Notes under the pieces: generated by a model | The model's database searches: none | Told to the model about the DNA's origin: nothing | What the model saw: the letters and a program-made list of their open reading frames with translations, nothing else | Source: Methanoregulaceae archaeon UXB-2016 | GTDB lineage: Archaea > Halobacteriota > Methanomicrobia > Methanomicrobiales > Methanospirillaceae | Assembly (NCBI GenBank): GCA_004332335.1 | Contig: SISS01000024.1 | Location: forward strand, 1 to 64,000 | Length of the DNA stretch: 64,000 nucleotides | Direction: 5' to 3' | Shown: positions 11,348 to 18,908 of the stretch, one piece after another | How positions within the stretch are numbered: the stretch's first letter is position 1 | Layout: the number at the start of each line of letters is the position of its first letter | Position numbers and translations under genes: made by a program

Positions 11348-12607
11348 TCAGGCTTTCTCGTTGAGCGGGTTGAAGACGTTCTTGTAGATCTGGTCGTCAC
11401 CCGTGTTCGAGAGGCGCTTGCGCTCGGTCTTCTCCTCGACGAGGGCCAGGACCGGCAGCGACATGTCGACGCCGGGCTTGTGGCCGAAGAGGCGTTCGAG
11501 TTCAACCTGCTGGGCATGCATGAAGAGCGCGTTCGGGATCTCCGACGGGCAGAGCTCCTCGCACTGGCCGCAGTTCACGCACGAGTCCGCGATATGGGAG
11601 AAGCGGATCAGGTGGAACATGAAGCCGGGCGGGACCTGGCCGGGCTTGACCAGGGACGGGTTCTTGGTCGAACAGTCCACGCAGTAGCAGATCGGGCAGG
11701 CCTCGATACACGAGTAGCACTTGATGCAGCGGCTCGTCTCAGTCAGGATCTTCTTGAGGCGCTCGTCGCCCTCGCCGAGGTCGGCGAAGTCGTGCTCGCG
11801 CCACTTGTTGCCGAGCTTGAGCATCGCGCCCTCGATCTTGGCGCGGATCTCGATCCCCTTCGGGTTTGCAGGCTCGGTAGCGATCACGCCGGCAGCGGCC
11901 GCCTTTGTCAGGAGGTCCGCGCCCTTCTGGCTGCAGACCTCGATGAAGGTCGCTTTGCCGGCCATCGGGCCGATGACGCCCCAGTTGCCTGCGGCGATGT
12001 CGGCCCCGCGCGGGACCTTGAGCAGGCACCGGCGGCAGTTCGTGCGGCGGCCGTAGCCCTCCTCCTCGAGTTCGTCGATGGAGATGCCCTTGTGGGTCCC
12101 ATCCTTCATCATGACGATGAACTGGCCCTTGTCAATCTCCTCCTTGACCACGTCGTTCGGGTCGAGCTCGAACTTCTCGGCGATCATCCTGCGCGCCACC
12201 GTGGGTGACACCGAGCCGCCACAGTTGACGCCGATCATGACGATGTTGTCGAGGTTGATCTGGCCGCGCTTGGCCAGCTCGTACATGGCCATCATGTCGC
12301 AGCCCTTGACCGTGATCCCGATCTTCATGTCCTTTGCACCGTCAAGGTACTTCTTGACGAGCTTCGAGACGAGGAGCGTGCCGCAATGGAGCGAGCCCGC
12401 GGTCTTGTCGAGATCCTTCGGGTCCGTGATCAGGATCGGCTGGGCGTCGTAGATGTCCGCGCCCTTCTGGACAGCGAGCACCGCGTCGACCGTCTTGCTC
12501 TCGAGCGCGTACTTGAGGAGGGCCGTGACCGCTCCTCCGCACTCGGCCTTCTGCTGAAGGTCTGCATCCGTGGTCCAGGCGTAGACCATCTCTCCCTTAG
12601 CTGCCAT
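11348..12607 (-). CDS. fdhB: Formate dehydrogenase beta subunit (F420-reducing)
   Basis: Electron-transfer subunit (419 residues) that takes electrons from FdhA through iron-sulfur clusters to coenzyme F420 on FAD. It belongs to the FrhB/FdhB family. Seen: the N-terminal CGGAVTALLKYALE block, an internal CxxCL segment (NCRRCLLKVPRGADI), then two 4Fe-4S motifs, CIKCYSCIEACP and CVNCGQCEELCPSEIP, and a C-terminal tail. The length is typical. It starts 2 bases after the fdhA stop, so the two are cotranscribed and probably translationally coupled. Reduced F420 produced here feeds the methylene- and methenyl-H4MPT steps of methanogenesis. Confidence 0.96.
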   Translation of the reverse strand: MAAKGEMVYAWTTDADLQQKAECGGAVTALLKYALESKTVDAVLAVQKGADIYDAQPILITDPKDLDKTAGSLHCGTLLVSKLVKKYLDGAKDMKIGITVKGCDMMAMYELAKRGQINLDNIVMIGVNCGGSVSPTVARRMIAEKFELDPNDVVKEEIDKGQFIVMMKDGTHKGISIDELEEEGYGRRTNCRRCLLKVPRGADIAAGNWGVIGPMAGKATFIEVCSQKGADLLTKAAAAGVIATEPANPKGIEIRAKIEGAMLKLGNKWREHDFADLGEGDERLKKILTETSRCIKCYSCIEACPICYCVDCSTKNPSLVKPGQVPPGFMFHLIRFSHIADSCVNCGQCEELCPSEIPNALFMHAQQVELERLFGHKPGVDMSLPVLALVEEKTERKRLSNTGDDQIYKNVFNPLNEKA

Positions 12608-14670: not shown

Positions 14671-14706
14671 AGAGAGTCCTCGGACAGAAGATCCTCTGAA
14701 AGTTAA

Positions 14707-14715
14707 CCTATTTAA
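14707..14715 (-). promoter_or_regulatory. TATA box of fdhAB
   Basis: TTAAATAGG on the minus strand, 37-45 bases before the fdhA ATG. This predicts a leader of roughly 15 bases, which would contain the GAGG ribosome-binding site. The motif sits among three GGTTAA repeats (TTAACC on the plus strand at 14703, 14712 and 14726). Confidence 0.5.
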
Positions 14716-14736
14716 CCATACTGATTTAACCATGAA

Positions 14737-14764
14737 TTATCGGAAATTATCGGTGGGTTATCGG
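14737..14764. repeat. Three TTATCGG repeats in helical phase between fdhA and the 14839 gene
   Basis: TTATCGG occurs at 14737-14743, 14747-14753 and 14758-14764, start-to-start distances of 10 and 11 bases. The copies therefore lie on the same face of the helix, as expected for a cooperative regulator site. The array is 20-50 bases upstream of the fdhA TATA box and just upstream of the TATA box of the divergent gene. The regulator is unknown. Confidence 0.55.
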
Positions 14765-14790: not shown

Positions 14791-14800
14791 ATATTTATAT
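14791..14800 (+). promoter_or_regulatory. TATA box of the zinc-ribbon/HTH gene
   Basis: ATATTTATAT followed by AGG, 39-48 bases before ATG 14839. It predicts a transcript start near 14821 and a leader of about 18 bases that begins with AGGAG. Confidence 0.55.
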
Positions 14801-14838
14801 AGGTCGACACATCCACGCTCAGGAGCGCAGAGATCAGT

Positions 14839-15465
14839 ATGACACGCCCGATTCCGATTGCACCGATGATGGTCGATATGGTCCGGGCAGGGATCAGCGC
14901 TCAGGACGGCACGGTCTACACCTTCCTCGACCACTGTCCGGACTGCGGCCGGAACGTCAGGCCGTACGACTTCCGGACGAAGCGCTTTGCAAAGCTCGTC
15001 GACGGCCAGGACGTACGCGAGGTCCGGGTCCGGGTCAAGCGTTTCCGCTGTGCCGGGTGTGGTCGACTCTGCTACGCCGAGTCGCCGTTCTATCCTGAAA
15101 CTCGCCACGGCGCTCCGATCGTCGAACTGGCCGCAGCTCTCTCCGAGCGAATGCCACCCGGTCAGGTCGCGAAGACCCTCGCGCGGCTCGGGATTCTGCT
15201 GGATCGTGCCACGATCCGCGGGTACGCCCGCCTCCCCCTGCCGCCGATAACGACACTGCACCTCTTCGGCCTGCCGATACCTGTCTCGGTCCTCCGGCTA
15301 TCATGTGGTGCCGGCGCCTCGATGCTCTCGGCCTTCGGCCATCCGGGCCTGTTCCGCGGTTCAGGATCGGGAGCGTCGGTCGAGCAGCGGCAGCAGGGGC
15401 AGGAAGAGCACCACGAAAAAGAACGGAAAGCCGAGCAGGAAGAGGACGGCGCTCACCCCGAGTGA
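14839..15465 (+). CDS. Zinc-ribbon plus helix-turn-helix protein (ISL3-transposase-like N-terminus), possible regulator
   Basis: Protein of 208 residues. Seen: a zinc ribbon with CPDCGR and CAGCGR knuckles (about residues 33-76) followed by an HTH-like segment (MPPGQVAKTLARLGILLDRATIRGYARL, about 104-131). This order is that of the N-terminal DNA-binding part of ISL3-family transposases, but no DDE catalytic domain or inverted repeats are present, so it is not an intact transposase. The last 35 codons, very rich in Glu/Gln/Lys, run antisense through the 47-codon gene at 15361-15504; the conserved part probably ends near residue 165. It is divergent from fdhA across the TTATCGG array, which makes it a candidate fdh regulator (inference). 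No close family name is recognised. Confidence 0.7.
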   Translation: MTRPIPIAPMMVDMVRAGISAQDGTVYTFLDHCPDCGRNVRPYDFRTKRFAKLVDGQDVREVRVRVKRFRCAGCGRLCYAESPFYPETRHGAPIVELAAALSERMPPGQVAKTLARLGILLDRATIRGYARLPLPPITTLHLFGLPIPVSVLRLSCGAGASMLSAFGHPGLFRGSGSGASVEQRQQGQEEHHEKERKAEQEEDGAHPE

Positions 15466-15504
15466 GGCCCCAAGCAGGGCCAGTGCCAGGGTCCAGCGGT
15501 TCAT
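15361..15504 (-). CDS. 47-residue membrane peptide, coupled to mfnF
   Basis: A very small gene: MNRWTLALALLGASLG begins a peptide whose residues 5-41 are almost wholly hydrophobic (two short or one bent membrane segment with FLLGFPFFFVVLFLPLL) and which ends in the basic tail DRRSRS. The ATG overlaps the mfnF stop as ATGA, so translation is probably coupled to mfnD-mfnF. The function is unknown. It overlaps the 3' end of the plus-strand gene at 14839 by 105 bases. Codon use and the hydrophobic pattern favour a real gene, but the length makes this uncertain. Confidence 0.6.
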   Translation of the reverse strand: MNRWTLALALLGASLGVSAVLFLLGFPFFFVVLFLPLLPLLDRRSRS

Positions 15505-16427
15505 GGATGCATCCCTTCGAGCGTGAGCTGGCGCACGGCGTGGGCGGGCAAGGCATCGGCCAGCGGGCCCAGGCTGGCCGAGAGATCCTCTGCCCCGAGT
15601 ATCGGGGCGAAGATCGGGGCGCCGATCCCGGCGACCACGACCCTCTGGCATCCGCTTCGCCGAACGGCCGCTCCGACCGCGTCCACGACCTCGTCGCACT
15701 GGACCGTCCAGACCTGGCGTGCGATCGAGAGGACCGTCTTCTCACCGAGCTCCTCCAGGTCGGCGCAGACGATCCGCGCGAGCCGGCGGAGGGCCCCTTC
15801 ATAGGTTGCAGGGCCTCTGTCGGGGGGCTCCGAGGTGTAGTCCCCGGCACGGATGTGGCCGAGCAGCAGGTGAACATCGCCCGACTGCGCGAAATGTTCG
15901 GATGCAACGGGGGTCGGCCACCCGTCGATATCGACGGTGCGAACAATCGCCGGGACGGTCGTCCTGAGCATCCCCGTATACAGCAGGTACCCTCGCTGAA
16001 GCCGAGCGAGGTCGGTCAGGCCCAGAAGCCCTTCAAGGTCCTCGAGCGGGACGATGTCGGCCGTGGTCGAGCCGATGTCGAGAAGGACTGCGTCGGAGTA
16101 CGCCCGCCGGAGCCAGGTCGCGGAGGCGAGCCAGTTCGCGGCGGCCAGCGCCGGCGTGGGGCCGGTATGGAATTGCCCGTCGGTCCCAAAGAAACGGGCC
16201 GCCGGAAAGACGGACCGTACCTGGTCGACGATGAACCGGATCCCCTCGTGCTTCGAGGCAAAGCAGTCGGCGAGCTCGCCCGACATCACGATTGCGGCCT
16301 CTTCCGCCGCATACGGCCTGAGCAGGTCCGCGATCGGTGCCCCGGTCCAGAGTGGGCAGTAGTGGATCGTGCTCCGGGTATCGTCCACGACCTTCAGGTT
16401 CGCTCCGCCCACGTCGATCCCGATCAC
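15501..16427 (-). CDS. mfnF: Methanofuran biosynthesis protein MfnF (ASKHA/hydantoinase-like)
   Basis: Predicted enzyme that joins the furan moiety to gamma-glutamyltyramine in methanofuran synthesis (the established role of MfnF). It has 308 residues with an actin/Hsp70-like ATPase fold: phosphate-1 motif MIGIDVGGANLKVV at the N-terminus and a second loop LLDIGSTTADIVPL. It is often annotated as hydantoinase/oxoprolinase-like. Assignment rests on the fold plus its place directly after the MfnD-type ATP-grasp gene, with which it overlaps by 4 bases (ATGA). A further ATGA joins it to the 47-residue membrane peptide. Start ATG 16427. Confidence 0.82.
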   Translation of the reverse strand: MIGIDVGGANLKVVDDTRSTIHYCPLWTGAPIADLLRPYAAEEAAIVMSGELADCFASKHEGIRFIVDQVRSVFPAARFFGTDGQFHTGPTPALAAANWLASATWLRRAYSDAVLLDIGSTTADIVPLEDLEGLLGLTDLARLQRGYLLYTGMLRTTVPAIVRTVDIDGWPTPVASEHFAQSGDVHLLLGHIRAGDYTSEPPDRGPATYEGALRRLARIVCADLEELGEKTVLSIARQVWTVQCDEVVDAVGAAVRRSGCQRVVVAGIGAPIFAPILGAEDLSASLGPLADALPAHAVRQLTLEGMHP

Positions 16428-17314
16428 AGGCGGGTCACCACGCCATCGGTCCCGTAACGGACGCGGCCTGTGAGGTGGACCTCCTGTGGTCCCTGTCCCT
16501 TCGAGGCGCGGACCAGGACGTCTGCGATCTCCTCCTGCATGACCGCGGCGATCCCGACGACCGAGGTCGTGACCCGGGGGTTGACGTCGACCACGTACGG
16601 CCGATCCCCGAGCACGAGATCGACCCCGACGTACCCCTGGCAGCCCAGCACCTCAACCGCCTTCCGGGCCACCTCGAGGCATTCGTCTCTGCGAGGGTGC
16701 TCGATGGGGCTCTCGCCGCCCCGATAGTGGAAACGTCCGTCACCGTCGATCTCGATCTCCTGTCGGTTCAGTGTGAGGACGAGCGGCCTGTCACCGGACC
16801 AGTACTCGCAAACATCGCCGACGACCCGACTTCCCACGAGCGAGACCGAGAGGTGCTCGCCCTCGATATACGCCTGCCCGAACTCATCCTTGCCGGCCGG
16901 CCCGTCCGAGAGCCGGACCCCGAGCGCCCCGTATCCCCGGATCGGTTTGATCACACGCCGACCATCGGTCTGCTCGGCCGGGACCGACAGATCGTGGCCG
17001 GCGAGGATGGCGGCCGAACGCTGCTTGTTCGCGGCCACAGCCACGTTCATCGCACCGCAGCCGATATTGTGACAGACCTCTTCGAGGGCCAGCGTGAACC
17101 TGGTCAGCAGGTGGTCGGGCGCGATCACGAGCCCGACATCGCAGCCGGGAGCGAGCCGGCGAATCTCCGCCTCCAGATCGGGTGAGCCGGGCAGGACGAC
17201 CTCGTACCCGCATGCCTCGAAGCTCGTCTTCAGCACATCCCGCATCGCGGCCCCCTCGGCCGCAACACCGGAGTCTTCCGCAAGGGACGCGTACTCGGCA
17301 AGGAACGCCTTCAT
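16424..17314 (-). CDS. mfnD: Tyramine-L-glutamate ligase MfnD (ATP-grasp)
   Basis: ATP-grasp ligase (296 residues) that makes gamma-glutamyltyramine, an early methanofuran intermediate. Seen: the N-terminal preATP-grasp part (MKAFLAEYASL), the ATP-binding core with VIKPIRGYGALGVRL, the acidic metal site in GCQGYVGVDLVLGD and YVVDVNPRVTTS near the C-terminus. The start could be ATG 17335, but MKAFLAEYA matches the family better, so 17314 is used; neither has a strong Shine-Dalgarno. It is first in mfnD-mfnF-membrane peptide and divergent from surE. Confidence 0.83.
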   Translation of the reverse strand: MKAFLAEYASLAEDSGVAAEGAAMRDVLKTSFEACGYEVVLPGSPDLEAEIRRLAPGCDVGLVIAPDHLLTRFTLALEEVCHNIGCGAMNVAVAANKQRSAAILAGHDLSVPAEQTDGRRVIKPIRGYGALGVRLSDGPAGKDEFGQAYIEGEHLSVSLVGSRVVGDVCEYWSGDRPLVLTLNRQEIEIDGDGRFHYRGGESPIEHPRRDECLEVARKAVEVLGCQGYVGVDLVLGDRPYVVDVNPRVTTSVVGIAAVMQEEIADVLVRASKGQGPQEVHLTGRVRYGTDGVVTRL

Positions 17315-17401
17315 GCAGCATCCGTGCACGGTCATCGTAGATGAACCCCACGCTCGCGCCCGGCGATCCCTTTTTGCCGTTCCCGTTCCACCACTAGTGC
17401 G

Positions 17402-18184
17402 ATGAGGCCCCGCGTCCTATTGACGAATGATGACGGCGTCAACTCGGTCGGACTCTGGGCTGCGTACGAGGCGCTCGCCCCGATCGCCGAGGTGACCGTG
17501 GTCGCGCCGGCGACCCAGCAGTCGGCCGTCGGTCGTTCGATCTCGATCTTCGAGCCGCTCAGGGTGGACGCGATCGTCCATAACGGGGTGGAGGCGCACG
17601 CGGTCGCCGGCAAGCCGACCGATGCGGTGATTATCGGACTCTTTGCGCTCAAACTCGAACCGGACCTGATCGTCTCCGGGATCAACATCGGCGAGAACCT
17701 CTCGTTCGAATCGGTCATGACCTCGGGGACGGTCGGGGCCGCGCTCGAGGGCGCGAACCAGGGCGTCCCCGGGATCGCCTTCTCCCTCCAGGTCGAGGAC
17801 CAGGGAGACAAGTTCGGCGACCCGCGCCGGAGGTCCCAGTCGTTCGCCGAGGCCGGGCGCGTGGTACGGGACTGCTGCGAACGGATCTTCTCGGAGGGAT
17901 ATCCGGCAGGCGCTCATGTGATCAACGTCAACGTCCCGGCCCGGTGCACTGGGGGGTATGAGATCACGAGGCTGGCACCCAAGCTCTTCGCGACCGGGGT
18001 CGAACGGCGGCTCGATCCGCGTGGCAGGCCCTACTACTGGATCGACGGCCCGATCGTGGACGAGGCCGAACCCGGGACCGATGTCCGTGCAATCCGGGAG
18101 GGGCGGATCTCGGTCACCCCGCTCACCCTCGACTGCACGGCACCTGGGGCCGCGGAAGCCCTCGCCACTCTCTTTCGATGCTGA
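17402..18184 (+). CDS. surE: 5'/3'-nucleotidase SurE
   Basis: Metal-dependent nucleoside monophosphate phosphatase, 260 residues, cytosolic. Seen: N-terminal LLTNDDG with metal ligands Asp10/Asp11, Ser41 in APATQQSAVG, and SGINIGEN with the metal-binding Asn, followed by the TSGTVGAALEG loop. The length and order of motifs are normal for archaeal SurE. ATG 17402 starts the conserved N-terminus directly. It is followed 40 bases later by rpiA on the same strand. The role is nucleotide salvage or housecleaning. Confidence 0.96.
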   Translation: MRPRVLLTNDDGVNSVGLWAAYEALAPIAEVTVVAPATQQSAVGRSISIFEPLRVDAIVHNGVEAHAVAGKPTDAVIIGLFALKLEPDLIVSGINIGENLSFESVMTSGTVGAALEGANQGVPGIAFSLQVEDQGDKFGDPRRRSQSFAEAGRVVRDCCERIFSEGYPAGAHVINVNVPARCTGGYEITRLAPKLFATGVERRLDPRGRPYYWIDGPIVDEAEPGTDVRAIREGRISVTPLTLDCTAPGAAEALATLFRC

Positions 18185-18224
18185 CCGAGAGAGGCTTATC
18201 CCTTGCCGGGGCAAACCTTCGTAC

Positions 18225-18908
18225 ATGGGCGACGAGGCACCCAAACGGGCTGCGGGATATGCGGCGGCCGAGCTGATTGAGGACGGGATGGTGGTCGGGC
18301 TCGGCACGGGTTCGACCGTACGCTTTGCAATGGAGCGACTTGCCGAACAGGTTCGGGCCGGCTTCACCTGCGTGGGAGTGCCCACCTCGCACCAGACGGC
18401 CATGCGCGCCCGTGCTCTCGGCATCCCCCTCGCGTCCCTGAACGACGCCCCGCACCTGGCGATGGCGATCGATGGCGCGGACGAGGTCGATCCCGGCCTC
18501 CGCCTGATCAAAGGGAGGGGAGCGGCTCAGACGCGCGAGAAGTGCGTGGCCGCAGCGGCCGACCGGCTGGTGATCGTGATCGGCGAAGAGAAACTCACGG
18601 ACCGGCTCTCGACCCTGGTCCCGATCGAGGTCCTGCCGTTCGCCTGTGCGACGGTTATGGGGCAGCTGGCCCTGCTGGGGGGAAGCGGTCGCGTACGGGA
18701 AGGCGTGGCCAAGGATGGGCCTGTGCTCACGGACAACGGCGGGCTGGTGGTCGACTGGTCCTTCGGACCCATCCAGGATCCGGCCGGGCTCGAAGAAGCG
18801 ATCGAGCGGATCCCCGGGGTGGTGGCCGCCGGGCTCTTCACCAGATTTACAAAAAAGACGACGGTGATCGTCGGCGATGGCGCGGGTTACCGCGTCATCA
18901 CCCGTTGA
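18225..18908 (+). CDS. rpiA: Ribose-5-phosphate isomerase A
   Basis: Interconverts ribose 5-phosphate and ribulose 5-phosphate; 227 residues, the usual length. Seen: the phosphate loop GLGTGSTV, the catalytic region DGADEVD, and KGRGAAQTREK holding the catalytic Lys and Glu. The usual second glycine of KGGG is Arg here, a modest deviation. A late GGLVVDWSF block completes the family. ATG 18225 follows a TATA-like GCTTATCC at about 25-30 bases, suggesting an almost leaderless mRNA even though surE is just upstream. Its last 11 bases overlap the convergent HTH gene. Confidence 0.95.
   Translation: MGDEAPKRAAGYAAAELIEDGMVVGLGTGSTVRFAMERLAEQVRAGFTCVGVPTSHQTAMRARALGIPLASLNDAPHLAMAIDGADEVDPGLRLIKGRGAAQTREKCVAAAADRLVIVIGEEKLTDRLSTLVPIEVLPFACATVMGQLALLGGSGRVREGVAKDGPVLTDNGGLVVDWSFGPIQDPAGLEEAIERIPGVVAAGLFTRFTKKTTVIVGDGAGYRVITR
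18851..18856 (-). terminator. Oligo-T terminator of the HTH gene inside rpiA
   Basis: On the minus strand a TTTTTT tract lies 42 bases past the stop of the HTH regulator. On the plus strand the same bases are part of the Thr-Lys-Lys codons of rpiA. It is the nearest oligo-T run for that transcript. Confidence 0.42.

Follow-up and report, generated by a model that had tools for sequence, protein, structure and literature searches.

The formate dehydrogenase genes fdhAB and a divergent gene for a small zinc-ribbon/HTH protein (P0002, encoded from position 14839) share an intergenic region that carries a single asymmetric 23-bp element, which is probably the operator of formate dehydrogenase, with the 14839 product as its cognate regulator and probably an activator. 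Judged from sequence, this element recurs across many genera of the Methanomicrobiales (an order), where it stands almost exclusively before fdhA homologues and keeps a similar distance and orientation. The gene neighborhoods of the regulator family link it to these sites as well as to genes of formate metabolism, namely fdhA, its paralogues and the transporter gene fdhC. The window analyzed here is the whole stretch of 64,000 nucleotides, from a 2.37-Mb archaeal assembly made up of 45 contigs, and the features discussed are collected in Table 1.

Table 1. Features of the fdhAB control region and its neighboring genes (window coordinates).
Feature	Position	Strand	Evidence or remark
fdhB, F420-linked beta subunit	11348..12607	-	Pfam FrhB_FdhB_N and FrhB_FdhB_C
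fdhA, formate dehydrogenase alpha subunit, 686 aa	12610..14670	-	NCBIfam TIGR01591, 914 bits (cut-off 666.25)
Three GGTTAA hexamers around the TATA box	14703..14731	-	by eye, retained in part among congeners
TATA-like box of fdhA, TTAAATA	14709..14715	-	orthologues have a similar spacing to the element
Conserved element (ACCCACCGATAATTTCCGATAAT), candidate operator shared by fdhAB and the divergent gene	14736..14758	-	R1 match, alignment A1, information profile
TTATCGG copy 1	14737..14743	+	overlaps second half of the 23-bp element; not conserved in congeners
TTATCGG copy 2	14747..14753	+	part of the conserved core CCACCGATAA
TTATCGG copy 3	14758..14764	+	one base inside the element, remainder outside; not conserved
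TATA-like box of the divergent gene, TTTATATA	14794..14801	+	35 bp from the element edge; putative assignment
P0002, divergent zinc-ribbon/HTH protein, 208 aa, proposed cognate regulator	14839..15465	+	family resembling the N-terminus of ISL3 transposases

The element was delineated in an alignment (A1) of 33 fdhA promoters, taken from the 43 regions, among 71 fdhA upstream regions of ~300 bp each, that match CC(A/C)C and a TATA box at a set distance. The set of 71 was assembled without L001-L003, L036, L037 and L039-L043, yielded no fdhA start in L047 and L081, and counts one place twice (L038, L080), while L072 and L073 are identical over their last 200 bases. Weighted by genus, A1 contains a 23-column block, then a poorly conserved stretch, then a weaker block and the TATA box, where the CC(A/C)C and TATA columns and their spacing are selected for because this pattern chose the regions. 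The block has the majority consensus ACCCACCAnTATTCATCAnTTTT, read on the minus strand from 14758 to 14736, and in the window lies 43 bp (start) to 21 bp (end) upstream of the TATA box of fdhA (the fdhA start follows the orthologue alignment; a longer ORF begins at 14733). Of three TTATCGG heptamers highlighted in the initial annotation, the middle one falls within the first half of the element, and the copy at 14737 occupies the place of the second half, which reads TCATCAnTTTT in other genera; the second half of the window's own element departs from the consensus. A sequence-only profile built from the 33 promoters (R1) matches the window at 14706-14760 (minus strand) with 37.3 bits (E-value 7.6e-9, the window's sequence being among the 33 in the model).

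Since the pattern used to select A1 included the TATA box, we repeated the test without the TATA box and with the tested genus left out. The TATA-free motif exceeded the 99.9% level of mononucleotide shuffles in 47 of the 71 fdhA upstream regions and in 14 of 15 genera, and at the window element its score was reached by none of 500 shuffles. Of these 47 regions, 45 have the motif in the same orientation, and in 35 an exact TATA-like box follows at 41-43 nt from the start of the motif. A conserved site at a fixed distance upstream of BRE/TATA, as in archaeal upstream activator sites, is thus found here. Among the 24 regions below the threshold are paralogues whose upstream region differs and loci that carry a CCCCC variant.

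The site is also close to specific for fdhA. R1 finds one site in the window's own genome, even at E-value ≤ 10, so that the hydrogenase genes, considered here as further targets, have none that this profile sees. Among 59 genomes of the same taxonomic family (≥90% complete), 57 gave a match at E-value ≤ 0.1 and 50 at E-value ≤ 0.001, and fdhA lies directly downstream of all 30 best sites. Extending the search to 159 genomes of the order (≥85% complete) recovered 111 sites at E-value ≤ 0.001 in 88 genomes and 20 of 33 genera, training promoters included, and 106 of these stand directly before an fdhA homologue (53 assigned by coordinates, 53 by tblastn or ORF translation in fetched loci; in G091 and G104 the assignment uses the 12 codons present before the contig end, with E-values of 0.002 and 0.024). 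This includes all 31 sites, from 30 genomes, in families f2-f5, which contributed no training sequence. The remaining five sites comprise four without fdhA downstream (L127-L130, E-values 1.2e-5 to 9.9e-4) and one at a contig end (G068). Outside the order, none of 19 genomes has a site at E-value ≤ 0.001 and five have one at E-value ≤ 0.1 (0.002-0.1), a level that the non-fdhA matches L132-L139 (0.005-0.012) share. At E-value ≤ 0.001 no site was found in 71 of the 159 order genomes, 68 of which have the regulator. In family f5 the core can still be recognized in the expected position, with weak scores, and in f6 it is partial in L190 and L251 and not seen in L186. Some sites serve divergent fdhA paralogues, either ~53-57% identical or of a ~617-aa form (~45% identical).

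Several observations were made alongside these counts. The shorter fdhA paralogue (~617 aa) has its own divergent regulator copy in L125, L126, L193, L195, L233 and L241. Similar intergenic regions with a good first half of the element occur at L128:2001-2028 and L130:1001-1026 (G031, G051), with no fdhA seen downstream. Finally, L136, L137 and L139 (G087, G085) share a dispersed intergenic repeat with an ACCCAC-like start followed by the hairpin-like CGCCCCAAT...ATTGGGGCG and GCATATAATGCCCTCCGGA.

We propose that this region is a shared, divergent control region of fdhAB and the 14839 gene, in which the 14839 protein would bind the single asymmetric element and activate fdhAB, because binding upstream of BRE/TATA would recruit the basal machinery. 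From the same site, 35 bp from its own TATA-like box, the protein may also control its own gene. The signal could be formate or hydrogen supply, a natural guess from the targets, and the gene context makes formate-dependent control plausible. An alternative, possible but doubtful, is that the site is a repressor operator from which the protein would block both fdhAB and its own gene when formate is absent. Divergent repressor genes are indeed common, and by eye the motif directly adjoins the TATA-like box of the regulator gene in several loci without an adjacent fdhA, but the site stops ~20 bp short of the fdhA TATA box on its upstream side, a position that in archaea suits an activator more than a repressor. 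From this arrangement, activation of fdhAB appears more likely than repression.

The assignment of the 14839 product as cognate regulator draws on gene linkage across the order. A divergent P0002-family gene lies within 1 kb of at least 62 of the 111 sites (at 51-120 bp for at least 52 of them) and, in the same divergent sense, within 8 kb of at least 13 more; 35 have no family gene within 8 kb among the matches listed. Starting from the regulator gene, 20 loci of the order showed a divergent fdhA or fdhA-like gene within ~500 bp in 13 cases and none in seven. A further 20 loci, chosen mostly because no fdhA was seen beside the gene, held fdhC nearby in eight (L242, L244-L249, L251), fdhA or an fdhA-like gene in four (L233, L236, L238, L241), and neither in eight, three of which have little upstream sequence (L237, L240, L243). 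As fdhC also adjoins the regulator gene in M. hungatei (L227) and in L197, it is near this gene in 10 loci without an adjacent fdhA, and four of these 10 fdhC genes were confirmed as formate/nitrite transporters (Form_Nir_trans).

The motif itself stays with the regulator gene in eight of 19 loci without an adjacent fdhA (at most 3 of 200 dinucleotide shuffles), six times at 76-97 bp and pointing away from the gene and twice, in family f3, adjoining its start and pointing towards it; no significant motif was found in the other 11 with the same 200 shuffles. When the 1,300 bp preceding fdhC were searched with a strict pattern (the eight loci above with fdhC, together with L227 and L197), the motif appeared in L248 and L249 only, ~1 kb off and beside the regulator gene. 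Where the regulator is multiplied, its copies stand beside several fdhA genes: G027 has three copies and three fdhA, and regulator gene and fdhA paralogue recur together in G027, G083, G035 and G072, mostly accompanied by the site. The P0002 family is absent from four order genomes, and three of these also lack the site (G016, G084, G167), a joint absence that is weak evidence because 71 of the 159 genomes have no detected site anyway; the fourth, G094 (90% complete, ~810 contigs), has the site and no regulator was found in it.

These distributions bear on a second alternative, which we regard as unlikely, namely that another transcription factor binds the fdhAB operator and the divergent gene is a passenger or is itself regulated from the site. 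The site without a detected regulator in G094, the 35 sites far from any listed regulator gene and the 68 genomes with a regulator and no detected site would all agree with this. Against it stand the repeated pairing of the regulator gene with fdhA paralogues, mostly with the site, and the motif kept beside this gene at eight of 19 loci that lack an adjacent fdhA.

Two neighborhoods recur around the regulator gene. In five genomes of genus g5 (L242, L244, L246, L248, L249), the regulator gene and fdhC are separated by an ORF of ~150-160 codons (MDKKSQIVLVLGIA-like). In the window, the regulator gene is flanked at 15501-18908 by genes for Hydantoinase_A-like, ATP-grasp, SurE and ribose-5-phosphate isomerase A proteins, a group that recurs by eye, whole or in part, in L184, L187, L191, L194 and L197, where fdhA is not adjacent; this may therefore be the ancestral place of the regulator gene.

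The initial annotation had instead suggested an operator in the three TTATCGG copies, a reading that it tied to conservation of the array upstream of fdhA orthologues. These copies are present as claimed at 10/11-bp spacing, between fdhA and the divergent gene (start-to-start gap 168 bp), and the second repeat set it described, GGTTAA on the minus strand, is also real: it reads TTAACC on the plus strand, with copies starting at 14703, 14712 and 14726, of which the second overlaps the TTAAATA at 14715-14709. In the 64-kb window TTATCGG is the sole 7-mer occurring three times at 10/11-bp spacing (the scan found three further non-overlapping 7-mer triples within 50 bp), and locally the triple is beyond chance, being absent from 20,000 dinucleotide shuffles of the 168-bp intergenic region, with any 7-mer occurring at least three times in 43 of them. 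The 5' end of an orthologous fdhA is present in five of the seven genomes of the genus, i.e., the window and four congeners, and the congeners have 1, 1, 1 and 0 exact copies in otherwise similar promoters, the fourth having CCGATAT. Across all 71 fdhA upstream regions, the window's alone has more than one copy, and six have one. Conservation of the array is thus not found, since the congeners have one copy or none and 70 of 71 regions have no multiple copies. The array was likewise rejected as a genome-wide regulon mark: the sole other TTATCGG pair with 2-15 bases between copies in the whole genome is located in a 481-codon ORF.

What stands from the earlier operator reading is hence a control region of fdhAB above the TATA box, with the 14839 product as the best candidate to act on it, and what falls is the triple heptamer as the operator itself. 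It is quite unlikely that the three in-phase copies are nevertheless the true operator, as a lineage-specific cooperative array of which the conserved element is just the core: they are beyond chance locally, lie on one DNA face and have two of three copies inside the element, but the congeners' similar promoters do without the array and the genome contains no other. Most of the triple is probably a quirk of one genome, in which the middle copy marks a probable DNA switch, and copies 1 and 3 may be products of local drift or offer the protein an additional, optional contact in this species. Very improbable is an extended core-promoter feature without a dedicated factor, which would account for the similar TATA spacing in most loci but not for a near-specificity to fdhA promoters (a single site in the window's genome and, across the order, 106 of 111 before fdhA homologues) nor for the 0 of 19 genomes outside the order at E-value ≤ 0.001.

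The proposed regulator belongs to a family resembling the DNA-binding end of ISL3 transposases. P0002 itself has no Pfam match at E-value ≤ 0.001, with weak ones to DUF6431 and to zinc ribbons of transposases, and its residues 31-90 match NCBIfam NF033550 (E-value 2.2e-6), although over profile positions 11-71 of 370 only and with 27 bits against a cut-off of 180. The N-terminal zinc ribbon of ISL3-family transposases is recognizable from these profile matches and from Cys33, 36, 71 and 74, invariant in all 41 family members, 25 of which match Pfam Zn_ribbon_ISL3 at E-value ≤ 1 (best 3.8e-7). All 41 also match DUF6431 (PF20020) at E-value ≤ 1 (best 2.3e-6), whereas P0002 itself reaches 18.8 bits for a cut-off of 26.6. 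The DDE catalytic domain of ISL3 transposases is not found in the 208-aa P0002, given the limited profile match, and complete members of 161-218 aa leave no room for it. An AlphaFold2 model (mean pLDDT 86) predicts a helix, a long beta hairpin and three helices at 92-130 (92-102, 107-116 and 123-130, pLDDT > 90). Compared with solved structures, Foldseek returned nothing at E-value ≤ 0.001 and VIA-align only weak matches to HTH parts (Z 4.0 or less); the weak alignment to the ISCth4 transposase (Z 3.5, 41 residues, 1.3 Å) is within the range of common arrangements.

Unlike ISL3 transposases, the P0002 family occurs in 155 of 159 order genomes and in all 33 genera, mostly as a single copy each. 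In a phylum sample of 391 genomes, 97 match the family at E-value ≤ 1e-10, all inside the order; among the 20 listed of the 294 without a match, G016 belongs to the window's taxonomic family and 19 lie outside the order, and the remaining non-matching genomes were placed outside the order by kinship ordering. P0002 probably derives from an ISL3-type transposase, of which it would keep the DNA-binding end without the catalytic part. It is tempting to speculate further, at what we consider even chances, that this domain became a dedicated formate-dehydrogenase regulator of the Methanomicrobiales, near-universal there and unseen outside, multiplied with fdh paralogues and sites, and acting on a gene-specific site conserved across families.

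A divergent regulator with its own operator is in itself an ordinary arrangement. Formate is, with hydrogen, a main electron donor of these methanogens. In M. hungatei alone, five fdh clusters are present (PMC4704411). A literature search in one paper collection returned no description of this regulator or site, nor of any factor controlling fdh in Methanomicrobiales (the consulted portions of PMC2686161, PMC4704411 and PMC3600222 name no fdh regulator for this group), and no paper on the domestication of ISL3 transposases or on archaeal zinc-ribbon factors derived from transposases; DUF6431 is named in one paper of the collection. The reach across the order and the probable transposase origin make this pair of regulator and site worth a test. 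If the reading is true, the switch of these methanogens between hydrogen and formate could be approached through one gene and one short site, with simple tests, and a lineage-specific regulator would be seen to have arisen from the end of a transposase.

Two known systems offer a comparison. Ptr2 of Methanocaldococcus is an example of an archaeal activator with a site upstream of BRE/TATA, and the element described here resembles such sites in being conserved, at a similar TATA distance and in one orientation relative to its target, but its presumed partner is a zinc ribbon plus HTH protein rather than an Lrp-type one, with a putative role in activation. In bacteria, formate-responsive control of formate enzymes is exemplified by E. 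coli FhlA, a sigma-54 activator. The system proposed here differs in being archaeal, with a TATA promoter and an unrelated protein, and, if the present reading is right, would share with FhlA a dedicated regulator of formate-metabolism genes.
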